In this document: positions 27,844 through 29,931 of the stretch, piece by piece
How positions within the stretch are numbered: the stretch's first letter is position 1
How the letters are laid out: each line of letters opens with the position of its first letter
Origin: a virus
Strand: one strand, 5' to 3'
DNA length: 36,453 nt
IMG/VR virus record: IMGVR_UViG_3300004457_000340
Coordinates: 1-36,453 of that record
Program-made: the position numbers and the translations under genes
The notes under the pieces: model-generated
Databases searched by the model: none
What the model was told of the DNA's origin: nothing
What the model saw: the letters and a program-made list of their open reading frames with translations, nothing else

Positions 27844-28284
27844 TCAATTGTAATAACCCTTGCTCAATCTGTATAGTAAAGTAGTACGTTTTAAGTTTAA
27901 ATCGTCGGCAGCACTTTGCAAGGATCTGTAAGTTTTCCCATTAATCACAGTAACTTTACCCGTATCAACTGGTCTACCTCTGCCCTCTTTCACTCGTACA
28001 TATTCTTTGTACTCATGGTTTTTAAACTGAATCTCAGCAGCTTCACGTGCATTGTTAGCAACTGTGTCAATTCTAGTGTTGTAAAAGCTATAAGCTCCCT
28101 CATCATTGTAACGACACATAACATATTGATGTTTCAATCTGCCACGTTGTTCCCACTTGCCAGAGCTTTCCCACATGTAACGCCATTCTTCAAAGTTGAA
28201 TAGCCATTTGATTTTACGTTGTTTAGCATTAGACATTTGGCGACTATATGCTTTCTTCATTTGTTTAAGTTTTAATTTGTCCAT
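27844..28284 (-). CDS. homing-endonuclease-like DNA-binding protein (HNH/NUMOD-associated family)
   Basis: A 146-residue protein counting from the ATG at 28284 (a TTG at 28299 is possible; neither has a clear ribosome binding site). The first ~55 residues are basic and helical and end in FNFEEWRYMWESSGKW. The middle resembles the 'Y-V-M-x-R-x-x-D-x-G-x-Y-S-x-x-N-x-R-I-D' region common in phage-encoded HNH-like proteins. The C-terminal ~40 residues (INGKTYRSLQSAADDLNL, LLYRLSKGY) are a NUMOD/IENR1-type helix-turn-helix. No complete HNH triad is visible. A TAAATA box lies four bases upstream of the ATG on the minus strand. Likely a mobile or regulatory DNA-binding protein. Confidence 0.55.
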   Translation of the reverse strand: MDKLKLKQMKKAYSRQMSNAKQRKIKWLFNFEEWRYMWESSGKWEQRGRLKHQYVMCRYNDEGAYSFYNTRIDTVANNAREAAEIQFKNHEYKEYVRVKEGRGRPVDTGKVTVINGKTYRSLQSAADDLNLKRTTLLYRLSKGYYN

Positions 28285-28288
28285 ATTG

Positions 28289-28294
28289 TATTTA
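28289..28294 (-). promoter_or_regulatory. TAAATA box before minus-strand gene
   Basis: Read on the minus strand, GAGTAAATACAATATG places the box four bases before the ATG, one base shorter than the five-base spacing seen elsewhere. No Shine-Dalgarno is evident. Confidence 0.3.
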
Positions 28295-28299
28295 CTCAA

Positions 28300-28533
28300 T
28301 GTATCATATTTTTTGTCAATAAGGGTACTTTTTTAGCCAAAAACCATAGCTTAAAAGTATATCTGGCGTTACAATAGCTAAATAAACATGTAGATGATGC
28401 GTTCGTGACATTTCACATTGTTTATACATTCCTAAAATTTGTCAATAGAAGCTCCCCTGATTGAACCCAGGGGACTTCACTCAAGGTTCAAGTGAGATGA
28501 CAAATTCTTAGAAACAAATTTTAAGGAACATTT
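28300..28533. promoter_or_regulatory. intergenic control region of early operon
   Basis: This 234-base gap separates divergent genes and has no ORF. TTTGTCAATA occurs twice (28312-28321, 28438-28447). A CTAAATA box is at 28378-28384, and TATACA (28423-28428) is a weak -10 candidate without a good -35. The 3' part (28431-28528) holds the structured leader described separately. AAGGAA (28523-28528) is the ribosome binding site of the gene at 28534. Confidence 0.5.
28436..28506 (+). promoter_or_regulatory. riboswitch-like three-way junction with kissing loops
   Basis: Outer stem P1 pairs AATTTGTCA (28436-28444) with TGACAAATT (28498-28506), 9 bp. Inside, P2 pairs TCCCCTG (28453-28459) with CAGGGGA (28468-28474), loop ATTGAACC. 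P3 pairs TCACT (28477-28481) with AGTGA (28491-28495), loop CAAGGTTCA. The loops are complementary over six bases (TGAACC with GGTTCA). An alternative helix of ~12 bp pairs 28431-28442 with 28514-28526, which includes the ribosome binding site and excludes P1. This is the architecture of a translational switch. Not a sequence match to any riboswitch I know. Confidence 0.5.
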
Positions 28534-28833
28534 ATGCATTCAATAGAAGAATTTACAGCACTGTCCATTGCCGTTGAAAAGGAAGAATTCGGACCAGACT
28601 TCTGGTATGTAGTTAACAGATTACCCAATGAACATTTGATTCTATGGGCAGAACGACTAAGCAAAACAAAATATCTATCAAACAAGAACCCAGAGTACTG
28701 GCTTGACTTACTTGACTTGATTCGTATCGCAAAAGACCCAATGAATCAGATACTAACTAGTAAACAAAAGAGATATCTAGCTATGTTAATATTGGAATGC
28801 TGGAATGAATTAGAGTGTGATTATGTCTTATAA
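28534..28833 (+). CDS. small hypothetical early protein
   Basis: A 99-residue helical, Trp/Leu-rich protein (FWYVVNRLPNEHLILWAERL, YWLDLLDLIRIAKD). The start is set by AAGGAA six bases upstream. Its stop lies inside the start region of the candidate polymerase at 28823, an 11-base overlap, so the two are likely translated together and may form a complex. No family recognised. Confidence 0.6.
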   Translation: MHSIEEFTALSIAVEKEEFGPDFWYVVNRLPNEHLILWAERLSKTKYLSNKNPEYWLDLLDLIRIAKDPMNQILTSKQKRYLAMLILECWNELECDYVL

Positions 28834-29920
28834 GCCCAACTTTAATGATCCGCGTGTAATCAAGAAAATCAAAAGAGCCCTTGGATTCGTCGGCGCTTGT
28901 CTTAGTGATACTAAATCACATCCATGGAGTACTAGATATATGGATAAGTTCTTTGGACAACAGCAACATGACTTATCTAAGTGGTTAAGGAATCAGTTAG
29001 TTATATGTACTAATGAAAGATACTCAAAAGACACAGGTATATGTAAGGAATACGTTAAAAATTCAACGGGTTATAATAATCTCATGGGTTTGATAAAACC
29101 ATCTACTTCATACCCTAGTGTATCACAAGTCGGAAATATAGTCAGTGATTGGGTAAAAGACGAGTACAAAGAAGAACTAACCACTAAGAACTTCACCTAC
29201 GAAGACAAATCTAGTAGATTATGGCATCCACTACAACGTGTACGTAAAGAGCACAAAATCAAAGTATTCAGTGAAAGTGGCTTAAAGTTTCAATATGACA
29301 TAGAATGTTGTGCTCCTACACTGATATATCAATACAGTCAGCAACTAGATGCGCCCATGGACGAATACTTATTCACCCTAGCAAGTTACATCAAAGACCG
29401 CAAATCAGTTAGACAGCAGCTAGCCAAAGATGCAGATATCCCGGAAGAAGTAGCAAAAGAACTAATCAGTGCATTAATCAACGGAGCACAGCTAGGAATG
29501 AATGACACCTCAAGTATCTATAAATTACTCAATGGAGATAAAGCCCGTATTGAATATCTCAAACAACACACATACATCAAAGAACTAAGATCCGACGTAA
29601 AAGTTTGCTGGAGTTACATCAAACAGACCTTACCCATCACTACAATAATAGATAAGAACGGCAAAACTAGAACTAGACCTATCTCTTGTAAACAAAAAGC
29701 CGGAGTATACTTTGACTTAGAACGACTTGTGCTTAATTCAGTTAGGAACTACCTAGATAGTACAAATAACAAATATTTCTTGGAACATGATGGCTGGGTG
29801 TGTACTAATGAAATTGACACAAATGAGTTACTCAAATGGGTTAAGGTTCAAACGGGTTATGATATTAACTTAGATAAGCAGGTTTTGATAAGTCCATCTA
29901 CTTCATACCCTAGTGTATAA
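28823..29920 (+). CDS. candidate palm-type polymerase / replication protein
   Basis: A 365-residue protein starting at ATG 28823; an upstream GTG at 28817 would add two residues. Three motifs appear in polymerase order: YDIECCAPTLI (D159, motif A-like), AKELISALINGAQLG (K212 to G225, motif B-like helix) and EHDGWV (H322, D323, motif C-like, as in family A 'HD[EG]'). An upstream WHPLQRVRKE may contact template or nucleotides. No exonuclease, primase or helicase motif is visible, and the size is well below standard DNA polymerases. As the only replication candidate in the genome it may initiate replication. Residues 90-100 and 355-365 repeat as STSYPSV, encoded by a 48-base direct repeat. Alternatives are a Rep-type initiator or unrelated protein. 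Confidence 0.4.
   Translation: MSYKPNFNDPRVIKKIKRALGFVGACLSDTKSHPWSTRYMDKFFGQQQHDLSKWLRNQLVICTNERYSKDTGICKEYVKNSTGYNNLMGLIKPSTSYPSVSQVGNIVSDWVKDEYKEELTTKNFTYEDKSSRLWHPLQRVRKEHKIKVFSESGLKFQYDIECCAPTLIYQYSQQLDAPMDEYLFTLASYIKDRKSVRQQLAKDADIPEEVAKELISALINGAQLGMNDTSSIYKLLNGDKARIEYLKQHTYIKELRSDVKVCWSYIKQTLPITTIIDKNGKTRTRPISCKQKAGVYFDLERLVLNSVRNYLDSTNNKYFLEHDGWVCTNEIDTNELLKWVKVQTGYDINLDKQVLISPSTSYPSV
29089..29136 (+). repeat. 48-base direct repeat, copy 1
   Basis: This matches 29884-29931 at 45 of 48 positions, with a 25-base uninterrupted core starting at 29099. It encodes residues ~90-104 of the candidate polymerase in the same frame as copy 2. Confidence 0.95.
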
Positions 29921-29931
29921 CAAGTCGGAAA
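29884..29931 (+). repeat. 48-base direct repeat, copy 2
   Basis: This lies 795 bases (265 codons) after copy 1. One of the three differences (C to A) creates the TAA stop of the candidate polymerase at 29918-29920. The 3' end of the copy supplies the GGA ribosome binding site of the next gene at 29935. Confidence 0.95.

Follow-up and report, generated by a model that had tools for sequence, protein, structure and literature searches.

The stretch of DNA analysed here, all 36,453 bases of a virus record, is referred to as the window; it carries genes for a phage terminase, portal and major head protein. Within it, a 234-base gap separates a minus-strand gene (27844-28299) from a plus-strand operon that starts at 28534, and a structured leader lies in this gap. 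The positions of the leader elements and of the two genes that matter here are given in Table 1. Gene A gave no match in PHROGs or Pfam and could be placed in no known family. The start of gene B overlaps the end of gene A. A search of annotated phages, both at the DNA level and with tblastn, returned no similarity. Relatives of the gene A and gene B proteins were found on about fifty contigs in scans of viral contigs, and single contigs are named below (L002, L003 and so on) only where they differ.

Gene B is not covered by PHROGs or Pfam either, and a sequence search against solved structures gave chance-level matches only, which left fold comparison as the one informative approach. The AlphaFold2 model of the protein (pLDDT 91.7) was matched to family A DNA polymerases by both Foldseek and VIA-align 2, and the best comparison with T7 DNA polymerase gave a Z of 13.0 and an rmsd of 3.8 with 226 residues aligned. 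Asp161 and His324-Asp325 are near-invariant among 33-35 gene B homologues. We take D161 and H324-D325 to be the acidic residues of motif A and motif C of family A polymerases. The model therefore combines a family A polymerase-domain fold with conserved acidic residues, and gene B is predicted to encode a compact family A DNA-polymerase-like protein. It is called polymerase-like only, because residues 115-359 account for most of the fold match, and TM-scores were modest. The presence of such a gene in the same operon supports the preliminary description of this DNA, a note made from the letters alone, in its claim that the leader heads a replication-type operon. The structural neighbours of gene B also include virophage replication proteins. 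In L036 (372-1541), the reading frame of gene B ends after 229 aa and the similarity continues beyond that point.

A 51-nt direct repeat lies in gene B of the window (29086-29136 and 29881-29931, 92% identical). Its core, TACCCTAGTGTATYACAAGTC, is conserved as DNA in related phages (L003, L005, L007, L008, L012 and L037), usually with two copies per locus, one inside gene B and one at its 3' end; L037 has a single copy upstream of the leader. Since the repeat encodes low-confidence parts of the gene B model, its appearance is that of an element acting at the DNA level, for example a site of binding or recombination.

Table 1. Positions of the leader elements, promoter-like motifs and genes in the window, with the evidence for each.
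Feature	Position	Strand	Evidence or remark
Promoter-like TACAAT (28370-28375) and TAAATA (28379-28384)	28370..28384	+	Upstream of the leader
Anti-Shine-Dalgarno arm TTCCTAAAATTTGT, common to P1 and the alternative helix	28429..28442	+	Duplex with the Shine-Dalgarno region
P1, 5' strand	28432..28444	+	Fold with the ribosome site held open; P1 pairs 50/50 in eight leaders
P2, 5' strand, 11 bp with C28452 bulged	28448..28459	+	Free and constrained folds; P2 pairs 84/86
L2 kissing sequence TTGAACC	28461..28467	+	Exact complement of 28485-28491; loop pairing 52/52
P2, 3' strand	28468..28478	+	Folds; pair counts in eight leaders
P3, 5' strand CTCA	28480..28483	+	Constrained fold; P3 pairs 32/32; comes after a single A
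L3 kissing sequence GGTTCAA	28485..28491	+	Loop complementarity and pair counts in eight leaders
P3, 3' strand TGAG	28493..28496	+	Constrained fold
P1, 3' strand (C28507 bulged)	28498..28511	+	Resembles the Shine-Dalgarno-side strand; read as anti-anti-Shine-Dalgarno; ACAAATT repeat
Shine-Dalgarno-side strand of the alternative helix, includes AAGGA (28523-28527)	28514..28528	+	Folds; duplex energies
Gene A, first gene of the operon, 99 aa	28534..28833	+	N-terminus conserved in L002 and L009
Gene B, compact family A DNA-polymerase-like protein (predicted), 367 aa	28817..29920	+	Common to all eight leader loci; pLDDT 91.7; T7 DNA polymerase fold match

The leader of the window and its transcript

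Each element named in the preliminary description was found in the window where it had been placed. The 9-bp closing stem P1 (AATTTGTCA at 28436-28444 with TGACAAATT at 28498-28506) is present and can be extended to 13 bp with one bulge (28432-28444 with 28498-28511), and the heptamer ACAAATT does occur twice, at 28500-28506 and 28514-28520. Three elements were redrawn. The 7-bp P2 (TCCCCTG with CAGGGGA) is present, with 11 bp as the better reading, and the six-base complementarity of the two loops (TGAACC at 28462-28467 with GGTTCA at 28485-28490) is likewise present and better taken as a kissing helix of 7 bp. For P3, the pairing of CTCA with TGAG was preferred in the constrained fold, and the 5-bp register first proposed (28477-28481 with 28491-28495) is kept as an alternative. 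RNAfold gave -30.4 kcal/mol for 28425-28545 (z -3.6), with 1 of 200 shuffled sequences equally low. When the two hairpins and their kissing contact were scored together, none of 1000 dinucleotide-shuffled versions of the leader scored as high as the window. ARAGORN found no tRNA-like element.

The TAAATA motif upstream of the leader lies 50 nt upstream of the anti-Shine-Dalgarno arm in the window, and it is found 32-50 nt upstream of the arm in 8/8 of the leaders compared below. It also occurs 11-60 nt upstream of several other gene starts in the window, against 155 nt at the gene that follows the leader; sites in the window include 420, 4903, 8077, 11443, 13764, 15319, 16604, 28379, 30121 and 31022. 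This placement suggests that TAAATA is a phage-specific or T4-late-like promoter element. Taking it as part of a promoter, the leader would be unusually long for this genome. Because a promoter-type motif lies upstream of the arm, the transcript probably includes the whole leader element.

Upstream of gene B in L002, L007, L012, L015, L018 and L025, there are stretches of about 100-250 nt with no obvious gene that, read by eye, run from a TAAATA-like motif to a strong terminator-like hairpin. Each is possibly a small RNA gene. This stretch is present in several relatives that do not have the kissing leader and also in L002. In L036, a second, divergent leader was seen on the minus strand at about 1-90; it combines a TATAAATA motif and a GTAGCAACGCTGCTAC hairpin, and its ATG is preceded by AGGAG.

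The minus strand bears on one possible explanation of the leader, namely that it is an antisense-controlled replicon leader as in the IncI-complex plasmids, where loop pairing is needed for translation and an antisense RNA blocks it. The idea is the same, as loop pairing controls a replication gene in those plasmids (PMC10286972). However, a consensus scan of the minus strand found no promoter-like site facing the hairpins. The nearby promoter-like TTGACA-17-AACAAT (28445-28417), which overlaps the 5' strand of P1, reads away from them and would read towards the gene at 27844-28299. No leader peptide was seen either, and we consider antisense control of this kind highly improbable.

Conserved pairing and geometry in eight leaders

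Seven other phage contigs that carry the same gene (44-61% protein identity) have the same architecture in the same place. The eight leaders compared are those of the window, L002, L003, L005, L006, L009, L036 and L037; L004 is a copy of L003 and L010 a copy of L009, and neither was counted separately. The gene directly after the leader is gene A in 5/8 and gene B in L003, L036 and L037. Since gene A is absent after the leader in those three, gene B is the shared target. Most gene B relatives are found without this leader, and the leader-bearing rows require three state changes on the gene B tree; therefore, the leader has been lost, gained or exchanged more than once. Further scans of viral contigs gave no additional leaders, and no gene B was confirmed in prokaryote genome contigs.

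Covariation among homologous leaders had been set beforehand as the test on which the preliminary description would stand or fall, and compensatory changes were found across the eight leaders. The P1-P2-P3 junction with an L2-L3 contact that it had claimed is conserved and covarying. Stem and loop sequences differ nearly everywhere among the leaders while the pairing is retained: standard pairs were counted at 50/50 in P1, 84/86 in P2, 32/32 in P3 and 52/52 in the kissing loops, and double changes at 27/29 positions (7/7 in P1, 10/11 in P2, 4/4 in P3 and 6/7 in the kissing helix). Because the register is lost in a MAFFT alignment, columns were assigned manually in Python with the pairs known beforehand; a repeat of the counts used the refined P3 of the window. 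After reassignment of the 3' strands among leaders, standard pairs made up a mean of 50-66%, in permutations that ignore relatedness. The observed pairing was reached only by the true assignment for P1 and P2, and by 4 (P3) and 6 (kissing loops) assignments in all.

The L2 loops read TTGAACC, TTGGTAG, ATGATAG, TTGTAG, TTAGCG (in three leaders) and ATGGTAG, and in every case the partner loop contains the exact complement. This complementarity of 6-7 nt, present in all eight leaders, was equalled by 6 of the 40,320 possible reassignments of L3 to L2, which is the number of ways of swapping the three identical TTAGCG loops. In the test of the hairpin-hairpin-kissing score, with 1000 shuffles for each leader, the observed score was reached by 0/1000 in 7/8 leaders and by 2/1000 in L009. 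With double changes at almost every position and these shuffle tests, chance is a poor explanation of the pairing in the leaders.

A strict pattern of the motif was run on both strands of 1.04 Mb of related loci. It matched 7/8 leaders, three unrelated places and one opposite-strand artefact inside a leader, and L009 was not matched because of its bulge. The same pattern had 0 matches in 245 kb of shuffled sequence. A loose version was discarded since it was common in shuffled sequence, and no other convincing copy of the motif turned up, either in the window or among related loci. The whole analysis is computational and draws on eight leader sequences.

The lengths of the helices follow a rule. 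P2 has 10-11 pairs in 8/8 leaders (two T-T mismatches in L006 included), and P3 (4-5 bp) together with the kissing helix (6-7 bp) adds up to the same 10-11. Both linkers, P2-P3 (often an A) and P3-P1, measure 0-1 nt; across the eight leaders, the junctions are 0-4 nt and variable, with L036 less certain in both respects. The equal lengths of P2 and of P3 plus the kissing helix suggest two helices lying side by side, with P3 stacked on P1, in a closed unit of approximately one helical turn. A definite three-dimensional fold follows as a prediction from this rule (P2 = P3 + kissing helix = about one turn).

The unpaired positions speak to the riboswitch reading of the preliminary description, which allowed for a ligand. 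In a true riboswitch, a metabolite or ion would stabilise the kissing junction and turn translation on. Both the architecture and this ON logic are like those of translational purine-type riboswitches, with the 5' strand of P1 as the anti-Shine-Dalgarno, and there are two near-isoenergetic folds. However, the leader has no match in Rfam, its junctions are short and variable, and the frequent A in the P2-P3 linker is the only unpaired position conserved among the eight leaders. No conserved unpaired pocket was seen, which makes a small-molecule ligand less likely; the ligand reading found no support, and we judge a true riboswitch to be improbable.

A competing helix over the ribosome binding site

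The preliminary description also drew an alternative helix that shares the 5' strand of P1 and covers the AAGG(A) before gene A. This helix was confirmed, with a span of 28429-28442 and 28514-28528. In the window, the duplex of the arm with the Shine-Dalgarno region has an energy of -12.3 kcal/mol (p 0.006 compared to shuffled arms). In 8/8 leaders, the 5' arm is able to pair with either the 3' strand of P1 or the Shine-Dalgarno region, weakly so in L036 and L009. Against shuffled arms, p for the pairing with the Shine-Dalgarno region was 0.002-0.010 in five leaders, 0.046 in L006, 0.088 in L009 and 0.515 in L036, and p for the pairing with P1 was 0.002-0.056 in 6/8, this pairing being weak in L009 and L036. 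One strand can form two mutually exclusive helices, and one of them covers the Shine-Dalgarno, which is the arrangement of an anti-Shine-Dalgarno/anti-anti-Shine-Dalgarno switch.

When the ribosome site was held open, RNAfold returned P1-P2-P3 in 8/8 leaders. These folds were 1.3-5.7 kcal/mol above the free minimum, with no kissing term credited. For a chain ending just after P1, the probability of P1 was 0.54-1.00 and P1 was dominant in 8/8. For the full chain, pairing of the arm with the Shine-Dalgarno region exceeded P1 in 7/8; the exception is L002, in which the predicted equilibrium favours the open state. Truncated and full chains were compared by equilibrium folding, and the kissing energies are a crude estimate. 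Temperature, which had been suggested earlier as a trigger, fared poorly in these calculations: from 5 to 45 C, the predicted gain in accessibility of the Shine-Dalgarno was at most about 0.15 in any leader. An RNA thermometer found no support in the secondary-structure model of the eight leaders.

With the arm shuffled, the Shine-Dalgarno region of the window, L002, L005, L006 and L036 was still predicted to be paired about equally or more through other contacts. For this reason, L003, L009 and L037 are the only leaders in which occlusion is clearly due mainly to the arm. That the Shine-Dalgarno pairing is not uniquely through the arm in five leaders would fit an element that acts mainly as an mRNA stability or DNA-level signal, with the overlap of the ribosome site being secondary, and a structured 5' leader can protect an mRNA. 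Such a signal is quite improbable in our view, as the complementarity of arm and Shine-Dalgarno is retained with changed sequence in most leaders and every leader directly precedes the start codon of the operon's first gene.

A possible translational switch and its known relatives

It is fairly probable that the leader is a bistable cis-acting RNA translational switch of the phage replication operon, in which the junction is the early, open state and the helix of arm and Shine-Dalgarno the later, closed state. In the open state, with P1, P2 and P3 formed and L2 kissing L3, the arm would be held in P1 and the downstream Shine-Dalgarno could be open. In the closed state, the same arm would pair with the Shine-Dalgarno region and initiation would be blocked. 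The 3' strand of P1, which mimics the sequence around the ribosome site, would be the anti-anti-Shine-Dalgarno. The order of synthesis and the fold calculations both point to the junction as the first fold; P2, the P3 hairpin with its kissing contact, and P1 would form while the RNA is still being made, ahead of transcription of the ribosome site. New transcripts would be translated, and then the arm would shift to the Shine-Dalgarno region and turn translation off. We infer that the kissing contact forms, that the two states control translation and that the switch runs in this direction.

Timing, rather than a ligand or a protein, may be the trigger of this switch, a proposal that we make only tentatively. 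The leader could then be a ligand-free translational timer, in which the junction keeps the site of the polymerase operon open on new transcripts for a limited time until strand exchange closes it. Its junction would be built on two equal-length parallel helices, and it would be a new class of phage mRNA leader. We see this as a possibility, less than an expectation.

The main rival is autogenous control, in which the product of gene B (or gene A) would bind the folded leader, favour one fold, and so repress or permit its own translation. All eight loci share gene B, with its DNA polymerase fold, as the target, and gp43 and gp32 of T4 repress their own translation through leader structures (PMC3014915). 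Nevertheless, nearly every paired position of the leader varies freely, the few near-constant pairs being at the apex of P2, so that a protein would find little fixed sequence to recognise, and the two exclusive folds are explained less directly by a bound product. Autogenous control seems somewhat unlikely.

At the gathering threshold, Rfam placed no family in the window or in the seven related loci. At E up to 5, a search of 28380-28560 gave sub-threshold matches only and no purine riboswitch, which agrees with an earlier remark that the junction is not a purine aptamer. Purine riboswitches (adenine, guanine and 2'-dG) consist of P1, P2 and P3 with an L2-L3 contact, their P1 competes with an expression-platform helix, and translational ON control is possible. 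The phage leader has in common with them the three-way junction, the L2-L3 contact and a P1 that competes with another helix, which is a shared architecture and not membership. It differs from them in lacking an Rfam match, in its short, variable junctions with no conserved pocket, in its contiguous and freely varying Watson-Crick kissing helix of 6-7 bp, and in a P2 of about 11 bp with a P3 of 4-5 bp. In the guanidine-II riboswitch, two adjacent hairpins of a leader kiss in dependence on guanidinium (PMC7544219). The phage leader also has two neighbouring hairpins that are predicted to kiss; unlike those of guanidine-II, its loops are complementary over 6-7 nt and variable in sequence, and its hairpins are enclosed by P1.

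The order of events proposed for the switch has a counterpart in the leader of the levivirus (MS2) maturation gene, where a transient nascent fold is translatable and a stable fold then sequesters the Shine-Dalgarno (PMC6071253). The phage leader would likewise be open early and closed late, an order that fits the equilibrium folds of truncated and full-length chains in 7/8. The levivirus leader, by contrast, belongs to an RNA phage genome, and no kissing three-way junction is described there (PMC6071253). AapA-type toxin mRNAs work the opposite way, as successive co-transcriptional metastable hairpins compete for the Shine-Dalgarno and block early translation (PMC6733600), whereas the early fold of the phage leader is predicted to leave the ribosome site open.

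Other replication genes are also preceded by structured leaders. In T4, the gene 43 operator is a small hairpin and the gene 32 operator a pseudoknot with an A+U tract, and both are bound by the gene's product (PMC3014915). As in those operators, a phage replication gene here has leader RNA structure near its ribosome site, but the RNA form is different, and it is for the T4 operators that binding by the gene product is known. In I-complex plasmids, the replication protein is translated under the control of its leader RNA, a system that requires a leader peptide and an antisense RNA (PMC10286972), and for ColIb-P9, according to a title cited in that paper, loop pairing in a pseudoknot acts as the switch. 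Unlike that leader, the phage leader showed neither a leader peptide nor an antisense promoter-like site facing its hairpins.

No description of such a leader was found in the open-access literature. The leader adds a phage RNA fold that Rfam lacks; covariation defines it almost entirely, and it is present on the replication polymerase operon in diverged phages. It also offers a testable case of phages using RNA shape, and not conserved sequence or a known ligand, to limit or time the translation of replication genes. Compared to the systems above, both the RNA family and the geometry of its kissing contact seem to be new, whereas the principle of anti-Shine-Dalgarno switching is already known.
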